Below, piece after piece: positions 31,615-63,611 of a stretch of DNA of 64,000 nucleotides (within the stretch, counting starts at the first letter, position 1; each line of letters starts with the position of its first letter). A program made the translations under genes and the position numbers. Source of the stretch: Clostridia bacterium (GTDB lineage Bacteria; Bacillota; Clostridia; UMGS1840); NCBI GenBank assembly GCA_017468465.1, contig JAFUIN010000008.1, positions 1 through 64,000 on the forward strand, written 5' to 3'. The notes beneath the pieces are model-generated. The model was not told where the DNA came from. It saw only the letters and a list, made by a program, of their open reading frames with translations, and did no database searches.

Positions 31615-31688
31615 GGTATTAAATGGGGTATTTTACCCATAACGGAGAAAACTGCGCTTCCCAACAATGCGGAAAGGAAACGGACACA

Positions 31689-34600
31689 ATGATGAATAAA
31701 AATAGGTCTCCCCAATTTTTTGATAAGGAAAAACAAGATAAACTGTTTGACATTTTCTATGCACAATTTTCAGAACAGTTAAAAGTCGACAACTGTTTTT
31801 TGCTGACCACTGTAGGTCAGAAGCTGACAGGTGCTTTGCAGGAAAACGGCTTTCCCAACGCCAAGCTCCCTGTTTTTCGTGCCTGTCCCAAGCATTTTAT
31901 CTGTGGCTATGACTCTACCAAGCAAACTGCAACAGGCCCCGCCGCTGCAGTTGCCGTAAAGGGCTATCCCACCCCGGAACGCTTTGTTCCCTTAAAAGCA
32001 GCGTATACTGCCCCCGCCACTCTTTCCGAAAAACTGAAAGCCCATTTTCCCTATAATGAAGTGCCCCTGCGCGATGTGGAAGAATACTTAAAACAGCTTG
32101 GCATCGTTTGTGATGATGTTCAAGCCTATCTTTCAGAAAAAGCTCCTGACATGAAGCAAAAGGCGCTTTCCATGGGAGAAGGACATCCCTATGAACCATT
32201 TTTGATTGTAAATCCTCCCAGGGAAATCCCAGCCGAAATCCGCAATAGAGTAATCTGGGTTGCAAAAACAAAATTCGGAGATAAGCACATTGTAGAAAAT
32301 GCAGACATCGGAACAGCGTTTCGCAAGGTAGGTGTGAATTTCCGCAATTATAATTATATGCACCTGACCTCCTTCATCCGTTATTTTAAGGATATTTTTT
32401 CCATTATATCCATGAAAACAGGTGAAAAAAACAACTCCCGCATTTCCGTGCGCATTCTGCATCAGAATTTAAGCCGGATGCCACTTCCCGAAATAGACCC
32501 CTCTGTATTTGAAGCAGAACAAACAAAGGTACCGAAAAAACAAACTGCCAAAAACGTACTTCCGGAAAATGACTTCTTTCGAAACAGCATTTTTACCGCC
32601 TACGAAACCGGTGCTTATGAAAGCCTTCGCGAAAAAATATATATTTCCTACGGAATGCAGCACCCCGAAGACTGCGAGGTGTGGACTTTATATATCAACG
32701 CATTCTTAAAATTCTTCCCCTACCCCGCTCTTTCAGAATACACTTTGAACCCGTGGGAAAAAGCTGCAATGATTCCTGACACAGAGCAACTCAAAGAATA
32801 TTGTCAGGATTTGGAGCTGTTAAAAAGTTGGGGCTTTACTGACAACGACATTGGTCACTTGGATGATATGTTAAGACGGACTGCGCAACCCGCCACCACC
32901 ATCAGCGGATTGGCAACCCGTTTGACTCACACCTTGCCAAAGGCGTCCCTTCTGCCTGAAATTCTAAATTATATGAGTATCACCCAGGGAGAAAAAGTTG
33001 TGCGGGAAACCGCCATGAGAAACCTGTCTTTCGGTTATCTTGAAAAGGGAGAAACCGAAAACCTTGTAGACTTATGGGAAAATTTTCGTCAGGTTCTCTC
33101 TCCTAAAATTGTCAACCGTGTATTTTCCGCCATGTTTCAGGAAGGAAGCACTGCGCTCATTTTGAAATTGAAACACACGCTTTCGCAGGAAACGTGTGCT
33201 CACTCCCAGGTTGTCATGTATCTCACCATGGCAAGCTTCCTGGAAGGTGGCCACACAGCAAGCGACTTCAATCAGCTGATTGCCGAGCTTTCTGTCTATT
33301 CCTTCGACGAACAAATTGCCTATTTGAGTGATTTATACACCCTGCTTTTCACAGCAGAAAAATATGGTGCAGTTTGCATGCTGTCCGGAGAACTTCTGTT
33401 GCAGCTTCATAAAAGGGTTGCCCAAAAAGTGCTGCACGGACTGTGGATGCTTATGGCACCTCACAAAGAACAGCTTTTATTATATTTAGAAAAAGAATGC
33501 ACGCCCGATACTGTTTCTCTTTGTGCATTTTGGGAATACTTTTCGCAAAAGCAAGGCACAGATTTGCTTTGGGAAGAAAAGCGGAAACTAATCATAAGCG
33601 AATATATCAGCCGGATTGAGGCGGCTCCCCAATTAGAAGAAAAGCTGACACTCACAGAAACTGCATTGAATATGTTCCAAACCGAAAAGCAGTTCATTGA
33701 CATTCATATCCGCCTTTTAGAAGAAAAATATCCGGCAAACAGCAGCGAAGAACCCTACAAAGAAATCTTGTCGGAGCTGCACGAAAAACGAAACACCCTT
33801 GCTGTTATCAGTCTTGCAGAAAGCGGAAAGCTCGACCGCTACAAAGAAGAATACTGGTGTCAGAAAATATTGATTTCTGCCTACCGTCAGCAGTCCTTGC
33901 TTCTGACGGCTATTGTGCTGGGCGCAGACACCCTCCGGAATATGAAAACCGAGCAAGCAAAATATTATGTCTATGCGAATAAGCTTTCCGAAGACTTATA
34001 TGATTATTTCTATATTGAAGGAAACAACCGGCAACCGGAAGAGCTTCCTCCCTTTGCTTTGCTGCGCCACGTGAAAAATTTAATCAAAAATCCCGATACC
34101 AACGACTACCGTCACGCTATGGTCATTGTTAAGCTGCTCCTTTGGGCTGAAAAGCCGCTGTGCGCCGCCTTCATCTACTCCCTTTGTATGGCAAGCAGCA
34201 CCATGCCTTCTGACCTGAAGGAAATTCTGTCGGGGGTGGAAGAAGAATTAAAGCAAGCACTGCCCTATCCGGAAAGACTTTCTCTTTCCCGATTGGAGGA
34301 TGTTCTGAATACCCTGCTCACAACACTTCCCATCGAGGATATCAACCTGTGCTTATCCTACGGCAGAACCATTCTGGAGCTGGACCGTTTTGAAAGGGAT
34401 ATCAACTTCTACAAAGCAGAGCATAAATTCTGGAGAGAAGATTATTCTCTCCCCAAAGCTCTCATCGCTGCCAATAACTACGGAGAATCCTGGCGTATAT
34501 ACGGCAATGAATATCAGCATATGTCCAAGCTCAGCTATGTGGCAGATTTTATGTGTATCTATCAATTCCAGAATTTTGGTCCGTCGTTGAGCCGCTGTGT

Positions 34601-37600
34601 CTATGCCATGAACCAGAGCAAGCCGGAAGGCTTGCCGGACAACTTGATGGAATTAAACTATGCTCTATTATGCAAAAACTACGCAATTCCATCCTATTGG
34701 AATGCCTTTTGTGCTTATGCGAGCAGAAAAAAAGCATTTGAAAGCTGTAACGAGGAACTGTTAAGCCGCTACCTTTCCTATACCGACCAACATCCTCAAT
34801 ACAAACAGCTGACAACCGAGCTTCTGATACAATCCAAAAATCCCGACATTTTCTTCGGGCGTTATTTGCATGAAGACGGTGCTGTGAATGAATCCGCAAT
34901 AGAAAAAACGGAACTTTCCAATTTCATTCATTTGATTTTTTGCTATATTAAATATCTCCGAGAGGAAAACAAGCTCCTCTCTCCCTATACCGACTCCATC
35001 GCCATCCTCCTGAGCTATGTGAAGCAAGGGGCATCTGCCGCATCTGAAAAAGCTGTTGTTTTATGGTTGGAAGAATACGTTGAACTGCATTTGAAAGAGG
35101 ATGCCGATCCGGATTATTTTCTGGTTTCCGACCTGCTGTTGCGGGCTTATCCCAGAACGGAACATCTGATTTTCACCAACCGTGATGATAAGCTGCCCTA
35201 TGAAAAATACTATAACCTGCTGGACCGCTGGTTAGAAATCAACCCAACTCATGCCAACGCTCTGTCAATTTATTATTTTCACATTGACCAGCCAACCTTC
35301 CAGGATGAAGCAACACGTCACATTCAGTTTCGTTATTTGTCCAATGCACTCACCAAAATGTACGAAGCACAAACACAGTCAGAAAAAAACCGTGCTTCGC
35401 TTCTTAGAACCTGCAAAAGTATTCTGACTATGTATTTCTTAAACAATTTTGGAGCAGAAACCAAAATTCCCTATCCGCCGGCTCACTTTGTGGAAATGTT
35501 TGAAGATAGTTTAACTACCCTTCCGGAAAAGGCGCAAATCAGCCAGTTAGCTGCCGCTTTGACAAATTTATGGGAAGCGAACTTACCCCATTATTTAAGA
35601 GATTATTTGATTCTTTGTGGCATGACAAACTATTGGGACGTTTTTCTGTTAGACTTAATGAACACCACAACAAACCTCGACGTATTTTCTTGCGATGCGG
35701 TGCAACAATATATCGGTATCAGCGCATATTCTGCACTCAACCGTCGTTTATTCCAAATGCTCATTTATGCAAAAATTGCCCTTTGGAACGAGCACGCCTC
35801 TGCCGGTGAACAAATTTTTATCAACAATGATGACTACCCCACCTTCCGAAAAATGGCACAAAACGGTCAGATTGACACCCCCTATTTTGCAAAACTGTCT
35901 ACAATCTCCACCCTGGCCGGAAAAAATATGCAGTCGTTATTTGAAACCATCGCGCAAATAAGCAATGATGCACAAAAAAGCTGTTTGACACAAGCCTATA
36001 CCGTTATTCAGGGAAAAGTGTGCCATACCACGCTTTCTCTCCTGATGCAAACAGAAAATCCACACGATGCTGTGATGCAAATGTTCATTCTGTTGCAATA
36101 TCCCAACACGTTGACAGATGCGCTGGAGCATTTTATCAAAGAACACGCACACACCCGTGAAGAAGCTTTGGCTACCTTCTTGAATCATCCCCTGTTGGAA
36201 GAGACCATCGGCACTTTTTACAAGGCATATCTGATCACCTTGTTCCATCACACATTGAGCCGTTTTGATGAAGCGGCTGCTGCGTTACCCGCCGAAGAAA
36301 GCTGTCCGGAAGAGTGTGTGGTGAAATACAACAACTTAAAAAATGCAGTGCTCAACCGAACACTCCTGTCCGACACTGCAAATTTCACTGCGGTTTCCAA
36401 TCTTTTGAAGCTGAGCTTTATGGAATCTGCTGCTCCCTCTGCTTTGGAAAATTTCAACGATCTTCTCATCAGCTTTGATTCGGGAAATCTTGCCAACAAC
36501 GAAAAAAGCCAGATTTTACTGGCACGAAAAATCTATCATTATATCCTGTCGGGAGAAACTCATCCGGAATACGAGCGTTTTGTAATGCGATGGGGCTTCC
36601 TGGAGCTTTCCGTCTGCCAAAACTATGAACAAAGCCTTCGCATTTTGCTGGAGCTGTTAAATCATATTCACCTGATAACAGGTCACGCAGATTTTGAAAA
36701 CGAATTTCTGGAAGCCTTTTCGGAAATTTTCCTTTCCTTAAGCGAGCCGGTTATTTTATCCAAATTTGACAGTATCGGTCAAATCGGAACCCTGCTGGGA
36801 GACACCTACAAAAATTCGTTGATTACCAATATCACAAAGCTGCTGATCCCCATTTCTCAAACATATCAGGCACCCGATAAAGACTTCCATAGTGAGCTTT
36901 CCAAAGCCATTGAGGAAGCTATGCTCCTTCGTGCCGCACACCCCGGAAATCAGCTGGCTGACAAATGCTACGACATTCTTCTGGACTGCAAAACACAGCT
37001 GGAAAGCCGCGGCAGACTGCAGCTTGCCGTCTTAAACGAAGAAAACATCATCAGCGGGTCACTGTTTTACACCATTACAAACACCGGTTCTCATGCCGTG
37101 GAAGAATTGCTGATTACTGTCTCCGTTTTGAAAAACGGTGAAAAACTGCTGCGCTTCTTCAAAGAAGTGCCCCAGCTGAATAAAGGGCAAACCTATACGG
37201 AAGAAATCGAAATGGAACAATTTTTTGAGCAATTTCCGGAAGGCGAAGCAGTGGACATTCATCTTGATGTGGTTTACAACTGCATGGAGCACTCTGCCCT
37301 AACCTTACATATGGAGCAACAGCTTCTTTCCAAGCAAGAGGACTATGAGTATATCCACAGGGTTTACCCCTATGCTCCCATTGACCGCACAGAGCTGTTT
37401 CACCTTTACAATACGGTGCAAAACAGAAACTTTGTGATGCTGTACGGCACCAACGGAACCGGTAAAACAAGCTTGCTCACAATGCTGAAAAATCAACTGA
37501 CCAAGGAAAACACCACCACGTCAAAGACCTTTACGGTGATGCTTACCAACAACACCGAAAACCGTTCAGCTGCCGAAATCATCCATGATATTATGACATC

Positions 37601-39866
37601 GTTTTGCTACTGTGAAAACAGCAAAACCAATACAGAGTCGGTGTATAATCAATTACGTTCTTCCCTGGAATATGCGGTCAGCCAGGATGAAATCAACGAA
37701 AAAGCAAAGGAATTCATTCTTGCAAACTATCGGGAATATGTTTCCTGCAGTATGGATGAAAAAAGTTTCACATTTACCAATTTCATCAATCAGCTGAAAA
37801 ACCTGAACAATAAATTCAAAGAATTTAAGCTTCACACAGGTCTGGACTTCAAATTCTGTCTGCTGTGGGATGCTTTTGAAACTGTTATTTCTTCCAATCG
37901 GGTATCTCCCGAAGAAATGAATTTTAAGACCCTGATTGACACCTTCAAAAGCGAAGAAGCGCAAATTCGCATTGTGTTTACCGGCTCCAATAAGCTTTTG
38001 GAGGTGGCAGAAGTAAAAAATGATGCTGACCCCTGGAATATTATGTTCCGTGATATCAGCGGTGAAACCAGCATCAAGGTCGGAAATCTGCATAAAAAAG
38101 ACTTCTGTCGGATTATAACCGACAAAAATCTGCTAAACGGCGGCGAAATTCATTTTTCCGATGCTGCGCTGGACTATCTGTATCAATACACAAACGGCCA
38201 TATCAGCTATTCCAAAATGTTTGTAAATCAGGCCTTGGAAACTCTGCACGAGCGACGGGTCAACCGTCGCTGCATCTATCCGTCGGATATTAAAATTTTC
38301 GATTTTCATAAGAAAAAAGCCGAAAACGAACAGCGTGTTGCAAAAAATCTGACCGCACAGATTTTCCAGGACATCCAGAACGATTATGATGTCATCAATG
38401 TGGGAAAAACTCTGGCAGAAATCGCATCGGATGGAAACGCTCTCGTTTCTTCTGCCGAACTCAAAAAAACAGTGCTGTCCTCCTTCCACAATATTGGTGA
38501 AAAGCAGTATAACCGCGCCATTGAAATTCTCAAAGCACGTGACTTTATCACCGAGGAACAAGACAAATATCAAAAAGCAAATTATCGGTTCAACAGCGTA
38601 TTATACCTGAATCATTTTCTGTCCAGAGAAGCTGTTTTGCAGCAACCCGACGAAGAAATTCCGCTGGAAGAACTGATTGAAAAAATTCAGTCCAGAAATT
38701 ACAACTGGAAAGAAATTGATGAAATCAATAAGCTAAAAGGCGAAAAAAATGAAGTCAACGTGCATATTGAACGTCAGTATAATGACCACGCTACAGACCA
38801 GTCGGTCGGCACACAAACAAACATCCAAATCAATGCACAGTCCATCGCAACCACCTTCCACTCCATTTTGACTGCCGACACAAAAGACCTGCCGGAGCTG
38901 TTTTCTTCCTTGCCCATGCTTTCCGCATTTTTACCCGATGACAAACATGAGCAGTTAGCCTTGCTTTGCAACCGATTGGAAGAACAAACCTCTCGCAGTG
39001 TTGACCCCTTTGATGTGACAGAAACAAAACAGCTGCAACAGGAGCAGGCCCAGGTGGAAGCACAAATTGCAACCATTGCAGAGCCTGCAATCGCCGAAAT
39101 GCACAGCACTTACAAAAATGCTGTAGTGATGGCAGAAGATGTAGGGCACTTCTCTGTTTGGGAAACCTTAGGCATGAAAAACCAAGGGGAATACCAGTTG
39201 CTTTGCTCCAAACTGGATCCGGAATTTGTGGCAGATTTGTATTTTGCTGCCAAATTGGATTATGTGTTTAAGAATATGGAAGACGAAACCATCACCCAAA
39301 AAAACACTGACTTCAGCCCGGTCAGCATTATGTATTGCAAATTGATAGAAAAAATGCTCAAACACTATCACACGGACATCTACGCAGATAAACTGCAGGA
39401 ATCCTCTACCCAAAATACTATCAAAAATGCGCAAACCCAACAGGAACAGCTGGTTTTGTTCGGAGATTTGGCAAACGGCAGTGCCTTAACCGAATATGAA
39501 CAAAAGATGATTCGTCAACGCATTATGATCGGAGCATTTTTGTGGCCCATTAACCCCCGCTTTGACAACACCAAAAATCGCATTGAGCTTGCAGACGGGA
39601 TTTCAGATGTGGCAGAAAAATGGAATCTTCACGGCCATGCGCTGAACGATATCAGTCAAACCAGAAACGACTCCGCACACGGCTCTTCAGAAAAGCGTAT
39701 CACTTCACAACGGCTGAAAAAACTGAAATGTTGGCTCTTTGAACGAAAAGAAATTGCAAACTTGGTTGAGCTTTCGCAAATTCATAAAGAAGGTTATGAA
39801 AGCTATCTCAAGCACCGAAAAGAAGAAGAGGACCTGTTGAAAGTCTGGAACGGTGACCATTCTTAA
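31689..39866 (+). CDS. Giant OST-HTH / helical-repeat / STAND NTPase / HEPN protein, putative conflict system
   Basis: A 2,725-residue soluble protein I cannot match to a named family. In order: two LOTUS/OST-HTH-like segments (about 12-76, FLLTTVGQKL; about 175-240, NADIGTAFRKVGVNFRNYNY); about 1,500 residues of HEAT/TPR-like helices (245-1770); a beta-sandwich (about 1775-1880); a STAND-like NTPase with Walker A GTNGTGKT (1920-1927), Walker B FCLLWD (D2061) and sensor IVFTGSN (2095-2101); a winged helix (about 2220-2315); a polar NVHIERQYND segment (about 2355-2390); and a C-terminal HEPN-like domain with R2659-NDSA-H2664 (R-x4-H RNase motif). Known STAND conflict proteins pair an NTPase with a repeat sensor and a toxic effector. 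By analogy I infer an RNA-cleaving immune or dormancy switch. The start follows AAAGGAAACGG. Confidence 0.85.
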   Translation: MMNKNRSPQFFDKEKQDKLFDIFYAQFSEQLKVDNCFLLTTVGQKLTGALQENGFPNAKLPVFRACPKHFICGYDSTKQTATGPAAAVAVKGYPTPERFVPLKAAYTAPATLSEKLKAHFPYNEVPLRDVEEYLKQLGIVCDDVQAYLSEKAPDMKQKALSMGEGHPYEPFLIVNPPREIPAEIRNRVIWVAKTKFGDKHIVENADIGTAFRKVGVNFRNYNYMHLTSFIRYFKDIFSIISMKTGEKNNSRISVRILHQNLSRMPLPEIDPSVFEAEQTKVPKKQTAKNVLPENDFFRNSIFTAYETGAYESLREKIYISYGMQHPEDCEVWTLYINAFLKFFPYPALSEYTLNPWEKAAMIPDTEQLKEYCQDLELLKSWGFTDNDIGHLDDMLRRTAQPATTISGLATRLTHTLPKASLLPEILNYMSITQGEKVVRETAMRNLSFGYLEKGETENLVDLWENFRQVLSPKIVNRVFSAMFQEGSTALILKLKHTLSQETCAHSQVVMYLTMASFLEGGHTASDFNQLIAELSVYSFDEQIAYLSDLYTLLFTAEKYGAVCMLSGELLLQLHKRVAQKVLHGLWMLMAPHKEQLLLYLEKECTPDTVSLCAFWEYFSQKQGTDLLWEEKRKLIISEYISRIEAAPQLEEKLTLTETALNMFQTEKQFIDIHIRLLEEKYPANSSEEPYKEILSELHEKRNTLAVISLAESGKLDRYKEEYWCQKILISAYRQQSLLLTAIVLGADTLRNMKTEQAKYYVYANKLSEDLYDYFYIEGNNRQPEELPPFALLRHVKNLIKNPDTNDYRHAMVIVKLLLWAEKPLCAAFIYSLCMASSTMPSDLKEILSGVEEELKQALPYPERLSLSRLEDVLNTLLTTLPIEDINLCLSYGRTILELDRFERDINFYKAEHKFWREDYSLPKALIAANNYGESWRIYGNEYQHMSKLSYVADFMCIYQFQNFGPSLSRCVYAMNQSKPEGLPDNLMELNYALLCKNYAIPSYWNAFCAYASRKKAFESCNEELLSRYLSYTDQHPQYKQLTTELLIQSKNPDIFFGRYLHEDGAVNESAIEKTELSNFIHLIFCYIKYLREENKLLSPYTDSIAILLSYVKQGASAASEKAVVLWLEEYVELHLKEDADPDYFLVSDLLLRAYPRTEHLIFTNRDDKLPYEKYYNLLDRWLEINPTHANALSIYYFHIDQPTFQDEATRHIQFRYLSNALTKMYEAQTQSEKNRASLLRTCKSILTMYFLNNFGAETKIPYPPAHFVEMFEDSLTTLPEKAQISQLAAALTNLWEANLPHYLRDYLILCGMTNYWDVFLLDLMNTTTNLDVFSCDAVQQYIGISAYSALNRRLFQMLIYAKIALWNEHASAGEQIFINNDDYPTFRKMAQNGQIDTPYFAKLSTISTLAGKNMQSLFETIAQISNDAQKSCLTQAYTVIQGKVCHTTLSLLMQTENPHDAVMQMFILLQYPNTLTDALEHFIKEHAHTREEALATFLNHPLLEETIGTFYKAYLITLFHHTLSRFDEAAAALPAEESCPEECVVKYNNLKNAVLNRTLLSDTANFTAVSNLLKLSFMESAAPSALENFNDLLISFDSGNLANNEKSQILLARKIYHYILSGETHPEYERFVMRWGFLELSVCQNYEQSLRILLELLNHIHLITGHADFENEFLEAFSEIFLSLSEPVILSKFDSIGQIGTLLGDTYKNSLITNITKLLIPISQTYQAPDKDFHSELSKAIEEAMLLRAAHPGNQLADKCYDILLDCKTQLESRGRLQLAVLNEENIISGSLFYTITNTGSHAVEELLITVSVLKNGEKLLRFFKEVPQLNKGQTYTEEIEMEQFFEQFPEGEAVDIHLDVVYNCMEHSALTLHMEQQLLSKQEDYEYIHRVYPYAPIDRTELFHLYNTVQNRNFVMLYGTNGTGKTSLLTMLKNQLTKENTTTSKTFTVMLTNNTENRSAAEIIHDIMTSFCYCENSKTNTESVYNQLRSSLEYAVSQDEINEKAKEFILANYREYVSCSMDEKSFTFTNFINQLKNLNNKFKEFKLHTGLDFKFCLLWDAFETVISSNRVSPEEMNFKTLIDTFKSEEAQIRIVFTGSNKLLEVAEVKNDADPWNIMFRDISGETSIKVGNLHKKDFCRIITDKNLLNGGEIHFSDAALDYLYQYTNGHISYSKMFVNQALETLHERRVNRRCIYPSDIKIFDFHKKKAENEQRVAKNLTAQIFQDIQNDYDVINVGKTLAEIASDGNALVSSAELKKTVLSSFHNIGEKQYNRAIEILKARDFITEEQDKYQKANYRFNSVLYLNHFLSREAVLQQPDEEIPLEELIEKIQSRNYNWKEIDEINKLKGEKNEVNVHIERQYNDHATDQSVGTQTNIQINAQSIATTFHSILTADTKDLPELFSSLPMLSAFLPDDKHEQLALLCNRLEEQTSRSVDPFDVTETKQLQQEQAQVEAQIATIAEPAIAEMHSTYKNAVVMAEDVGHFSVWETLGMKNQGEYQLLCSKLDPEFVADLYFAAKLDYVFKNMEDETITQKNTDFSPVSIMYCKLIEKMLKHYHTDIYADKLQESSTQNTIKNAQTQQEQLVLFGDLANGSALTEYEQKMIRQRIMIGAFLWPINPRFDNTKNRIELADGISDVAEKWNLHGHALNDISQTRNDSAHGSSEKRITSQRLKKLKCWLFERKEIANLVELSQIHKEGYESYLKHRKEEEDLLKVWNGDHS

Positions 39867-39929: not shown

Positions 39930-40015
39930 TTTTCAAGACCGGAAAAATTGCTTTCGAAAGAAGAAACCGAGCCAAAGCAGCGCTTTGGTAGCACCCGAAG
40001 CCGTACCGATACCTT
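39930..40015 (+). repeat. Structured intergenic element, partial copy A
   Basis: Contains GACCGGAAAAATTGCTT, then CCGAGCCAAAGC-AGC-GCTTTGG (stem 2), then ACCCGAAG. Its 5' flank and core match copy B 100 bp downstream, but the closing 3' arm is missing or eroded. Confidence 0.6.
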
Positions 40016-40022
40016 ACGCCAC

Positions 40023-40160
40023 ACTTTCAAAATCGGCAAAATTGCTTCAGAATTCAAAAACAGAGCCAAATTTTGTTTGGCAACCCCGAAGGCGTATATG
40101 TTATACGTCGAGGGTCTGTTTTTGGATAGCATAAGCGGTCTGAACAATTTTTACATCTTG
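40023..40160 (+). repeat. Structured intergenic element, full copy B
   Basis: Nested stems in order: AAAATTGCTTCAGA with TCTGAACAATTTT (outer, one bulge); CAAAAACAGA with TCTGTTTTTG (40056-40065 / 40115-40124); GCCAAA-TTTTG-TTTGGC (stem 2); conserved ACCCCGAAGGC; CGTATA-TGT-TATACG (stem 3); TCGAG. A conserved GCGGTCTG lies on the 3' side. It sits between the giant gene and the convergent dehydrogenase gene. Confidence 0.7.
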
Positions 40161-40161
40161 A

Positions 40162-41109
40162 CTATGCTAAAAATTCTTTGGTAATGCTATATACATTTTC
40201 CACAGACTTCTTCATCAACTCTTCTTCTTCGGGGGTTAGGGAAACGGGGATATCCATTTCAACGCCCTGGGTGCTGACGATGCGGGGCATACTTACAGCC
40301 ACGTTTTTGAAGCCGTAGAATTCTTCTTTGGTGATGCTTACGGGAAGCACACGGTCTTTTCCGTTGAGAATTGCATCGGTAATGTCACTAACAGCGCTGG
40401 CAACACCAAAATAGGTTGCGCCTTTGTTTTTGATGATTTCTGCACCACCGGTTTTCACTTCTTCTTTAATTTGCATTCTTTCTTCTTCTGTTAAGGGATG
40501 TCCGTTTACGGTATTCAGATGCAGTAAGGGTTCCCCTGCGATGGTCGCATGGCTCCAGTAGGGGAACTGGGTTTCACCATGTTCACCAATCATCATTGCA
40601 TGAATATTTTTTACGTTCATGTCGAATAAAGAATATAATTTCTGTTGCAGACGGATGGTATCCAGATAGGTGCCGGAACCAATGACTTTGCCTGCAGGCA
40701 GACCGGTCCATTTCTGCACCAGAGTGGTCAATACATCTACAGGGTTAGAAACGATAATAAAAATACCACCGTTGTAATATTTCATAATTTCGTCAACGAT
40801 GCTTTTGGTAATGCTGACGTTTTTGCTTGCCAAATCCATTCTGGTTTCGCCGGGCTTTCTGTTTACCCCTGCAGTGATAATGATGACATTGCTGTCTTTT
40901 ACATCGGGGTAATCGCCTGCAATGATTTTCATAGAACCAAATACAGGACAGGAATGGGAAATATCCAATGCTTCACCATATGCTTTTTCTCTGTTTACGT
41001 CAATTAAAACCATTTCATGTGCCAAATTTCTTGCAGCGATGGTATAAGCAATAGATGCACCGACAAAACCGGTTCCAACGACTGTAATTTTTTTCTTACT
41101 GTTGCTCAT
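40162..41109 (-). CDS. L-lactate/malate dehydrogenase family protein
   Basis: The 315-residue NAD-dependent 2-hydroxyacid dehydrogenase has a Rossmann motif GTGFVG (12-17), catalytic loop Arg90 (GETR), Asp150 and His177 (GEHGET) and substrate Arg153. Overall it looks like L-lactate dehydrogenase (GETR, GEHG). The position that decides substrate, Gln102 in LDH, is Arg84 here (GVNRKPGETR), the residue found in malate dehydrogenases. So lactate, malate/oxaloacetate, or both are possible; the usual annotation as ldh is not secure. The ribosome site is TGAGG. It is transcribed alone, convergent to the giant gene. Confidence 0.9.
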   Translation of the reverse strand: MSNSKKKITVVGTGFVGASIAYTIAARNLAHEMVLIDVNREKAYGEALDISHSCPVFGSMKIIAGDYPDVKDSNVIIITAGVNRKPGETRMDLASKNVSITKSIVDEIMKYYNGGIFIIVSNPVDVLTTLVQKWTGLPAGKVIGSGTYLDTIRLQQKLYSLFDMNVKNIHAMMIGEHGETQFPYWSHATIAGEPLLHLNTVNGHPLTEEERMQIKEEVKTGGAEIIKNKGATYFGVASAVSDITDAILNGKDRVLPVSITKEEFYGFKNVAVSMPRIVSTQGVEMDIPVSLTPEEEELMKKSVENVYSITKEFLA

Positions 41110-43881: not shown

Positions 43882-43918
43882 AAAGGGAGGTAAAAAACTA
43901 CGTTTTTTACCTCCCTTT
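43882..43918 (+). terminator. Terminator with perfect 17-bp stem
   Basis: AAAGGGAGGTAAAAAAC-TAC-GTTTTTTACCTCCCTTT, ending the nif3-side transcript. Confidence 0.85.
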
Positions 43919-43923
43919 GCAAT

Positions 43924-44068
43924 GGGGATAAGGAAAAATGCTCCAAAGCAAACAAACTGAGCCAAAGCATAAGCTTTGGAAACCCGAAGGCCTGCGATGC
44001 ACGTCGAGAAGCGAAGTTTGTTTGTTGCAAGAAATTTTTTCTTGCGGTCTGGACGCTTTTTCACATCC
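43924..44068 (+). repeat. Structured intergenic element, full copy C
   Basis: Nested stems: GGAAAAATGCTCC with GGACGCTTTTTC (outer); CAAACAAACT with AGTTTGTTTG (inner); GCCAAAGC-ATAA-GCTTTGG (stem 2). Conserved core: AACCCGAAGGC, then ACGTCGAG and AAGCGAAGT. The 3' side holds an extra hairpin (GCAAGAAA / TTTCTTGC) and the conserved GCGGTCTG. It lies between convergent genes. Confidence 0.72.
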
Positions 44069-44074
44069 CCTTTA

Positions 44075-44740
44075 TTATTCCTCTTTTTGTCTTAATTTGT
44101 AATAAATCAGCGACCCAACCATCATTACAATGGCAATGACAAAGGGCAGTATAAATTCCTTGGACAGCGGATTTTTCAATGCGTCACCCATAACTGTAAA
44201 GGGAATCAGCGTGGGAACCATCGCCAGAAGAGACAGCCCCAGAAAGCTCCAATAGCCGTAACCGGTGCATCCGCACACCAAAGAGATGAGTTCCACCGGG
44301 AAAATGCCCGAAGCACGCAAAGCGAATAAGGTAACATTGCTTTTATCGGTGTTCTCCATAAATTTTTTCACTTTTTTGGAACGGCTGACAATTTTCTCAA
44401 CAAATTCTTTCCCCAGCCGTTTCCCGATGAAAAAGGTAATGGTAAGCGTCAGTGAGATGCCGGCAATATTCAAAAGAATGCTGTAAAGCGGTGGAAACAG
44501 ATTCCCCGTCAAAATGTAGCAAAATGCAACCGGAATGAAAAACAGCACCGATTTCACCACATAAATCAGCAAAACAATGCCAACCTCAAACAGCACATTG
44601 CCATGCGTAAAGGCAGAAATATCATCCGGTGTCAGTCCGGTAATTTTTTTCGTTAATGTATACAGCAAAACCACCAACACGGGAAGTAAGATTACGCCAA
44701 CACCAATCCAAAAGAATGTTTTCTTTTTACTGTGTTTCAA
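44075..44740 (-). CDS. VTT-domain (TVP38/TMEM64, DedA-like) membrane protein
   Basis: The 221-residue protein has an N-terminal membrane helix, the VTT core with FIPVAFCYILTGNLFPP and FFIGKRLGKEFVEK, the RASGIFPVELISLVCG re-entrant segment, and a C-terminal helix. Family members are linked to lipid scrambling or undecaprenyl phosphate flipping. It starts at TTG 44740 with GGGTGATT upstream; no in-frame ATG is near. It follows the ECF gene by 25 nt. Confidence 0.87.
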   Translation of the reverse strand: MKHSKKKTFFWIGVGVILLPVLVVLLYTLTKKITGLTPDDISAFTHGNVLFEVGIVLLIYVVKSVLFFIPVAFCYILTGNLFPPLYSILLNIAGISLTLTITFFIGKRLGKEFVEKIVSRSKKVKKFMENTDKSNVTLFALRASGIFPVELISLVCGCTGYGYWSFLGLSLLAMVPTLIPFTVMGDALKNPLSKEFILPFVIAIVMMVGSLIYYKLRQKEE

Positions 44741-54099: not shown

Positions 54100-54338
54100 C
54101 CATGCCTATTTTGAAAAACTTGACGCTACATCAGCAGAAAATGGTTTCTTCGCTACATGCAATGCTACGACGAGCGGTGAGATTCACAGATTTCAACTCA
54201 TTTTCTTTTTCGTACATTTTGCGCAGAAAAAAAGATGCAGAACAGAGAAAGCGAACCTGCAAAGGGACTCCCGAAGTCGTACCGAGTGTACGACGAGCGG
54301 TGAGATTCACGAATTTCAACTCATTTTTCAAGCAATAA
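54100..54338 (+). repeat. Fragmented copy E of the structured intergenic element, with internal direct repeat
   Basis: TACGACGAGCGGTGAGATTC begins a 39-bp direct repeat at 54166-54204 and 54289-54327 (2 differences, 123 bp apart). Before the second copy, GATGCAGAA...CCCGAAG-TCGTAC-N5-GTACGA-CGAG reproduces the core (CCCGAAG, stem 3, CGAG) of copies B-D. Located between convergent sigF and rplL. Confidence 0.6.
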
Positions 54339-54403: not shown

Positions 54404-54781
54404 TTATTTCAGTTCTACAGTTGCGCCAGCGCCTTCTAATTTAGCTTTGATAGCTTCAGCATCATCTTTGGAAGCGCCTTCTTTAACTTTAGAGGGAACA
54501 CCTTCTACCATTTCTTTTGCTTCTTTTAAGCCTAAGCCGGTGATTTCTCTAACAACTTTGATAACATCCAGTTTTTTGTCGCCGAAAGAGGTCATAACAA
54601 CGTCAAATTCGGTTTTTTCTTCAGCAGCAGCACCTGCAGCAGCACCGCCAGCAGCAACTACTACTGCACCAGCAGCAGCGCTTACGCCAAATTCTTCTTC
54701 TAAAGCAGAAACTAAGTCAGCCAGTTCCAGCACGGTTAATTCTTTAACTTCTTCAATTAATTTAGTAATTTTTTCGCTCAT
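54404..54781 (-). CDS. rplL: 50S ribosomal protein L7/L12
   Basis: The 125-residue stalk protein recruits translation GTPases. The N-terminal dimer domain (1-35), an Ala/Gly-rich hinge (about 36-52) and the C-terminal domain with [20 protein letters not shown] and [15 protein letters not shown] are visible. The ATG at 54781 follows GGAGGAAAT; the longer open frame is rejected. The gene is cotranscribed with rplJ. Confidence 0.97.
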
Positions 54782-54842
54782 TTTTATTTCCTCCATTTTC
54801 TGTGCATGATGCACCTATTTTTAGATGAACGTCAGGCAGCAA

Positions 54843-55349: not shown

Positions 55350-55370
55350 TTCTATACACCTCCATCTACC

Positions 55371-55411
55371 AAAAAAATAACTGTCCTCACAAAGACAAAA
55401 TGAGGACAGTT
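55371..55411 (-). terminator. Attenuator hairpin in the L10 leader
   Basis: On the minus strand AACTGTCCTCA pairs with TGAGGACAGTT, followed by a T7 run, 20 nt before the rplJ ribosome site. Read-through is expected to depend on L10/L12 levels. Confidence 0.8.
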
Positions 55412-55510
55412 GAAATAAAATACGTTATTATATAACAATTTTAATCGTCTTCCTCGATAGGCAAAATTTAAGGCTCAAAGACGCGCCGCCTATTGTCTTT
55501 GGAATAAACC
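55412..55510 (-). ncRNA. Ribosomal protein L10 leader
   Basis: On the minus strand the leader holds CCAAAGACAATAGGCGG, a long helix, GCCTTAAATTTTGCCTA and GAGGAAGACG, the conserved blocks of the Bacillota L10 leader as I know it (Rfam family L10_leader). It binds L10-L12 and controls the attenuator just downstream. Confidence 0.85.
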
Positions 55511-55518
55511 TTGATAAT

Positions 55519-55547
55519 TATAGCATAGCTGCCACAACTTGTCAAGG
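55519..55547 (-). promoter_or_regulatory. Promoter of rplJ-rplL
   Basis: Minus strand TTGACA (55542-55547), 17-nt spacer, TATAAT (55519-55524) with TG one base upstream. Confidence 0.93.
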
Positions 55548-62765: not shown

Positions 62766-63611
62766 ATGGCAGCATCTTATTTTGTAATAAAAGAAGGCAT
62801 CCGCATTTCACAGCTCAATTCCTTTTTCAAAATGCCCTGCAGCAGCACCTATGAATTTCTGGGAGAAACCCATAACTTCTGGGAGGCGTTGTATGTCCTG
62901 CGAGGCACTCTCTGTGTCACAGCAGATGACAGAGTATACCATCTGTCTGCCGGTCAGATTATATTTCACCAGCCTTTAGAGCTTCACAAATTTCACATCA
63001 CCGATAAAAACGGTGCAGAAATTATGGTCATATCATACGATGCGGAAGGTTCGCTCAATGACTTTTTTCGTGAAAAGGTATTTTCACTGAATAAAGAGCA
63101 GAAAAAGCTGATAGACAGCCTGCTCTCTTATGCAGATTCCCATGCGGAAGAAACTGACAATATCTATATCAGATATCACACTGCACTGCAAACGGTTCCG
63201 TTTTTTTCACAGCGTATCAGCTTATTGATACAGCTGTTGATGCTGTCTTTAGCGGAAAACAACAGCATTACTCCCCTTTCTCAAATTGAAGATTCGGGGC
63301 CCTACACGCTGGCTGTCCGATATATGACCGATAGAATTTCCGAAAATCTCACAGTGGAAGAAATTGCTGCAGCAGTGCATCTGAGCGTTTCCGCCTTAAA
63401 AAGAATCTTCAAAAAATATGCCGGAATGGGTGTGCACAAATATTTCTTAAAGCTGAAGCTTAAAACTGCGATTGAGCTGCTGGAAAACGGAGATTCGGTT
63501 ACAGAGATTGCCAAAAAGCTGAATTTTAGCAGTCAGGCATATTTTACCAATGTGTTCAAACGGGAAACGGGAGAATCGCCCTCATTATATCGCAATAAAA
63601 TGACCAAATAA
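62766..63611 (+). CDS. AraC family transcriptional regulator
   Basis: The 281-residue regulator has an N-terminal cupin sensor domain (about 10-110: YEFLGETHNFWEALYVLRG, LSAGQIIFHQPLELHKF) and a C-terminal pair of helix-turn-helix motifs (about 180-280) with LTVEEIAAAVHLSVSALKRIFKK and AKKLNFSSQAYFTNVFKRETG. It should bind a sugar-like ligand and control the divergent oxidoreductase gene through the shared palindrome. The site AAGGTGG precedes ATG 62766. Confidence 0.93.
   Translation: MAASYFVIKEGIRISQLNSFFKMPCSSTYEFLGETHNFWEALYVLRGTLCVTADDRVYHLSAGQIIFHQPLELHKFHITDKNGAEIMVISYDAEGSLNDFFREKVFSLNKEQKKLIDSLLSYADSHAEETDNIYIRYHTALQTVPFFSQRISLLIQLLMLSLAENNSITPLSQIEDSGPYTLAVRYMTDRISENLTVEEIAAAVHLSVSALKRIFKKYAGMGVHKYFLKLKLKTAIELLENGDSVTEIAKKLNFSSQAYFTNVFKRETGESPSLYRNKMTK

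Follow-up and report, generated by a model that had tools for sequence, protein, structure and literature searches.

In the window, by which we mean the whole 64,000-nt stretch of clostridial DNA that was analysed, two plus-strand units stand in tandem next to the end of the ldh ORF (40162-41109, opposite strand). The second of them, copy B (40025..40161), is a complete element whose right end abuts the ldh stop codon (CTA, 40162-40164) with a gap of 0 nt. The first, copy A (39931..40024), consists of a left half, with the left end, the 5′ side of stem P1, hairpin P2 and CCCGAAGCC, and of a degenerate 3′ half. The tandem likeness of A and B, pointed out in an earlier note on this DNA, stands in so far as the copies are spaced by 94 nt and share 78 % identity across 46 nt. 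However, copy A gave no match to our covariance model R1 at E ≤ 1 and has no recognisable 3′ half; it is a decayed partner of copy B. Just before copy A lies the end of a 2747-aa ORF (31623-39866), in which the segment LYGTNGTGKTS is Walker-A-like, and on this side the sequence flanking ldh differs in the congeners.

Further copies were found in the window. Copy C (43924..44070, plus strand) is complete and lies between convergent ORFs, with 4 nt separating its right end from the stop of ORF 44075-44740 on the minus strand. A terminator-like hairpin (43883..43918, plus strand) is located upstream of it, and equivalent hairpins stand before copy D and before the copies in G054, a genome from another family. 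Copy D (63859-63614, minus strand) is also complete, has a long P4 arm and leaves 2 nt between its right end and the stop of an AraC-type ORF on the plus strand (62766-63611). The fourth copy (54238..54314, plus strand) is weaker and consists of the core only. A gap of 90 nt separates it from the stop of rplL (minus strand, 54404-54814), a gene with element copies in congeners too. An L10 leader (Rfam RF00557) occupies 55366-55520 upstream of rplJ-rplL, with the fourth copy at the opposite end of the operon. Model R1 scored B with 46 bits (E 3.4e-9) and C with 58 bits (E 2.9e-12), both outside the seed, the seed member D with 82 bits and the fourth copy with 25 bits (E 7e-4). The pattern CCCGAAGGC-N3..25-TCGAG occurs twice in the window, where 0.01 occurrences are expected.

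Direct reading of the sequences and minimum-energy folds show one common architecture for copies B, C and D. The basal stem P0 of copy B (5′ arm AAAATTG-c-TTCAG, 40038..40050, paired with 40140-40151) joins AAAATTG (40038-40044) to CAATTTT (40145-40151) and TTCAG (40046-40050) to CTGAA (40140-40144); the arms in copy D read AAAATG-a-TGCAG and CTGCA-CATTTT. Stem P1 pairs CAAAAACAGA (40055..40064) with TCTGTTTTTG (40115..40124), the latter arm being placed by both the fold and the R1 match, and this stem covaries from copy to copy. Hairpin P2 (GCCAAA/TTTGGC, 40065..40081), which covaries at every pair where it is present, precedes the conserved CCCGAA block at the P1-P2-P3 junction (40085..40090), and this in turn precedes hairpin P3 (GGCGTATA/TATACGTC) with the conserved GAGGG behind it (40091..40109). 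The two hairpins surround CCCGAAGG and (T/C)CGAG. In all three copies GCGGTCTG sits just before the 3′ arm of P0, and in copy B this conserved block and the arm CTGAA-CAATTTT together span 40135..40151. All these features of copy B are on the plus strand. The P4 arm is very variable in length, with a few bases in B and about 100 nt in D. The unit of the family measures ~70-250 nt and consists of the basal stem P0, P1, the P2 and P3 hairpins and often the fourth arm P4. Its conserved junction reads GA[G/A]..CCGAAG..CGAG.GG[C/T]GA, with CCGAAG kept in 87 of 91 and in 112 of 127 aligned copies.

The fold and the model score of copy B bear out the earlier description of nested stems around conserved unpaired blocks, from which P0, GCGGTCTG before its 3′ arm and the end of the element directly at the ldh stop were absent. 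The stems of B, C and D do differ with pairing kept, as had been claimed: the P1-type stem is CAAAAACAGA/TCTGTTTTTG in B, CAAACAAACT/AGTTTGTTTG in C and GAAAAAACT/AGTTTTTTC in D. The blocks described as constant are shared broadly but are not strictly constant, since B carries CCCCGAAGGC and D carries TTGAG.

Model R1 has 98 positions and 30 pairs, and its seed was made up of D together with six copies found elsewhere; B and C were kept out of it. In an alignment of 91 copies, 95.6 % of the cells were paired, double-sided changes were seen at 27 of the 30 pairs, and 398 cells were doubly changed (99.5 ± 11 in shuffles); like those of the second set, these counts are biased towards structure because the alignment was fitted to the model, and the direct comparison of B, C and D is free of that bias. 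The second set, 120 distinct copies from the genome of the window and its congeners gathered mostly by the model and not by sequence pattern, gave 94.1 % paired cells, double-sided changes at 29 of 30 pairs and 524 doubly changed cells (155 ± 10 shuffled). The signal vanishes when the partners are slid by 1-3 columns. The covariation, for which a check in a wide alignment had been proposed in the earlier note, is therefore genuine and strong there. Subfamilies all preserve the pairing, old copies included.

G-T pairs outnumber A-C mismatches (136 versus 28 in the 91-copy set, 116 versus 58 in the genus set), and the strand given here has the more stable fold of the two in 83 of 91 copies and in 102 of 120. 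Folding is therefore a property of one defined strand. DNA energy parameters pick the same strand. The strand bias is thus no proof of RNA, and both RNA and single-stranded DNA are compatible with the strand evidence as the acting form.

A search of Rfam and of related Clostridia with the model had also been suggested. Using cmscan at the gathering threshold, we obtained no Rfam (release 15) match on any copy tested, the best score over the elements being 12.9 bits for Bacteroidales-1 with a cut-off of 60. The genome of the window (1.51 Mb) has 26 matches at E<0.05, and its congeners carry 48, 35, 20 and 32 copies. Matches were found in 33 of 293 genomes of the class, often as many near-identical copies in each, with many per-genome counts standing at the maximum number scored and to be read as "at least"; the remaining genomes had none. 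G054 contains at least 35 exact-core copies, single or in arrays at ~242 nt. This burst has 48 left ends and 42 right ends and is mostly full length, so that target-primed retro-insertion with 5′ truncation was rejected for want of a truncation bias. Applied to GTDB genomes, a strict sequence pattern recovered at least 120 stretches, almost all from gut Clostridia MAGs. Beyond Clostridia it matched Bifidobacterium leontopitheci (three in a row), B. ramosum and one MAG labelled Helicobacteraceae. One pattern match within a coding region (L007) was discarded as a chance match. Carriage by phages or plasmids was rejected as well, as there was one match among 2.9 million viral contigs and none in plasmids. 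Many copies in G002, G003 and G054 lie within ~200 nt of contig ends; since copies crowd there, the family probably breaks short-read assemblies, and the copy numbers are probably underestimates.

The orientation relative to gene 3′ ends is fixed. Considering adjoining genes of at least 120 codons, with ORFs from a simple script and no gene finder, we found the stop of an opposite-strand gene within 260 nt of the core 3′ end in 83 of 100 genus clusters. A sense gene ends upstream in 28 clusters and genes of both orientations adjoin in 24; outside convergent pairs, antisense outnumbers sense by 59 to 4 (p 1e-13). In the cases read by hand, with P4 and P0 included, the true right end is only a few nt from the stop. 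Judging from their sequences, the adjoining genes are ordinary and would encode LDH, EF-Tu, EF-G, L7/L12, HisD, PyrH, glutamine synthetase, LeuS, UvrA, UvrB and others. In B. leontopitheci and B. ramosum the copies are located antisense after nusG. Copies in G054 usually follow a terminator hairpin with a 3′ arm similar to the right end of the element, which gives the arrangement hairpin-(body-arm)n.

Empty sites occur in relatives that are only ~75-80 % identical and have other terminators. At site C, the three congeners G002-G004 have plain terminators only and lack the element, and the L038 site is empty in G003 and G004. At L038 (1340-1430) we also noticed a 5′-truncated element, its last ~65 nt, flanked by the terminator hairpin on one side and a full copy on the other. 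The element at ldh is present in every congener. At 11 of the ~22 sites in the genome of the window, the orthologous gene in a congener carries an element (~1 expected), which often belongs to a different subfamily or has a member of one as its tandem neighbour. This means either that sites are revisited or that resident copies are retained, and the pairing preserved in all of them hints at retention. The excess at orthologous sites, together with the pairing kept in old copies, suggests that resident copies are under selection and therefore have a function. We found no clean target-site duplication, including by eye in the G054 copies, and the empty sites are too diverged. No copy contains a gene, there is no recurrent neighbouring gene, and no transposase or other enzyme was tied to the elements. 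A repeat (TTACCATTTTGATATGCGCTGCGCTGAAGGAC..CAGAAGTCTACTTTTT) joins the right end of the element at L019, L032, L035 and L036 in G054, with unrelated genes adjacent. The partner gene considered on the basis of these four repeated right flanks was dismissed, as they are a different repeat beside unrelated genes.

Copy number, bursts, empty sites and orientation fit a propagated palindromic repeat, which the earlier note had mentioned as an alternative, better than the structured RNA it had concluded from covariation. The covariation and the single folding strand remain from that conclusion, but the dispersed bursts, arrays, empty sites and fixed orientation suit an RNA gene less well. Our assessment, with a chance slightly above even, is that A and B belong to a non-autonomous and probably mobile repeat family that is present in many copies in gut Clostridia and sporadically in other hosts. 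The family is dispersed and folds as a single strand; it is probably mobile and does not look like a single RNA gene. In the mechanism that we propose, a trans-acting enzyme would recognise the folded single strand and would copy or insert the unit, always the same way round, into the space that separates a terminator hairpin from the stop of an opposite-strand gene. Insertion would be tolerated at intergenic 3′ ends, and its repetition at the same sites along with array expansion would produce tandem copies. We infer that the element itself moves, that its fold could serve as the recognition signal and that single-stranded DNA could be the acting form.

A functional RNA seems unlikely to us. 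The folding strand would then be transcribed, by read-through or from its own promoter, as a structured non-coding or antisense RNA at gene 3′ ends. Strong covariation around conserved unpaired junction blocks, G-T pairs tolerated on one strand only, elements at orthologous genes above chance and pairing kept by every subfamily are all consistent with this. However, the adjoining gene lies antisense to the folding strand, for which an upstream sense gene that could transcribe it exists in only the 28 of 100 clusters noted above, the copies come in bursts and are wholly absent from most related genomes, no Rfam family covers them, and the choice of the same strand by DNA energy parameters deprives the strand bias of its value as proof. 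To a similar degree we doubt that these are domesticated genome-wide folding devices, that is, self-spreading gene-end elements lying antisense after housekeeping stop codons, kept by selection and acting, in the form of RNA or single-stranded DNA, through a binding partner of their own.

Improbable, and more so than either of these, is a REP-type repeat moved by a REP-associated tyrosine transposase (RAYT, a Y1 HUH enzyme). Like REPs, the element is a strand-specific, palindrome-rich folded repeat at gene 3′ ends (PMC3733652, PMC8266576). This mobiliser was suggested by two RAYT genes located 83-160 nt from elements in G003 and G002, and strong RAYT matches occur in 15 of 30 element genomes versus 4 of 20 without (p 0.04), an association that is at most weak across the 50 genomes. 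The candidate is weakened by the ordinary GTAG REPs, the usual RAYT substrate, found near several examined RAYT loci including the element-adjacent one in G002, and by G054, which has the largest burst and neither Y1 (PF01797) nor RAYT (RAYT profile A5). RAYT is likewise absent from the genome of the window, from G004 and from G007 (just a 5e-5 match in the latter). Moreover, GTAG is not conserved 5′ of the hairpin: the model begins, 5′ of P1, with four positions that read CAGA in 59 of 91 copies, and GTAG or ATAG follows the 3′ foot in 49 of 91. Clostridia RAYT genes near classic GTAG REPs (e.g. GTAGGGGCGATTCACGAATCGCCC) were seen at L195 (1516-2031) and L196 (1835-2326) and in the flanks of L201 and L203. 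These REPs form another repeat system of the same genomes, one that is unrelated to our element, and the genome of the window has them (L045) with no RAYT match.

Least probable is a 3′ untranslated-region element of the adjoining gene's own transcript, an mRNA stabiliser or terminator, as could be read from its location 0-10 nt past the stops of housekeeping genes with terminator hairpins adjacent, given that the fold and its G-T pairs lie on the other strand and that the T tract, present in some copies (L011), is absent next to either end in many copies and subfamilies (e.g. L041, L051), for which reason intrinsic termination was rejected as the function of the class.

Among known systems, the repeat family resembles several. 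GTAG/CGTC REP repeats and REPINs are simple hairpins of 20-40 nt with a 5′ GTAG or CGTC tag (PMC3733652, PMC3116915, PMC8266576). Shared with them are the high copy number, the intergenic and mostly downstream location, the palindromic and strand-specific folding, the tandem or clustered copies and the G-T pairs in stems; in contrast, our element is a multi-branched unit of ~70-250 nt with a conserved junction and no 5′ tag, and does not require RAYT. In the Bacillus cereus group, bcr1-bcr18 include the MITE-like bcr1-3 and, according to the summary in PMC3446304 (citing Kristoffersen 2011), bcr10 and bcr18 with conserved structures predicted to be functional RNA. These too are dispersed structured repeats of Firmicutes, a likeness drawn from description and not from sequence, but they belong to another host group, and fixed antisense placement after stop codons is not part of that summary. 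Like MITEs, the elements are short and non-autonomous, have inverted-repeat-like ends and occur in bursts, and they are multi-copy and dispersed with empty sites in relatives. They differ in having no transposase-bearing relative, a target-site duplication was not clearly seen in them, and the multi-branched conserved core would be superfluous for a simple terminal-inverted-repeat element. Integron attC sites are imperfect palindromes in which structure outweighs sequence; they follow the stop of a gene, and the strand that folds is the one antisense to this gene. Both properties recur here, whereas our elements are dispersed at housekeeping genes and show no GTTRRRY boxes by eye at their ends. 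The element works like REP or bcr-type repeats, the latter likened by description, and is placed in neither group. In openly accessible journals we found no paper on its sequence or on an equivalent family, and this folded-repeat family appears to be uncatalogued so far.

Several families of gut Clostridia carry the element at 20-50 copies per genome, and it was traced to Bifidobacterium. The element combines covariation of the grade seen in RNA families with the behaviour of a mobile element, so covariation alone is no proof of an RNA gene. In carrier genomes the elements may account for some of the assembly breaks. Their presence raises the question of which enzyme, in genomes without REP transposases, would read a multi-branched single-strand fold and place it antisense at stop codons.
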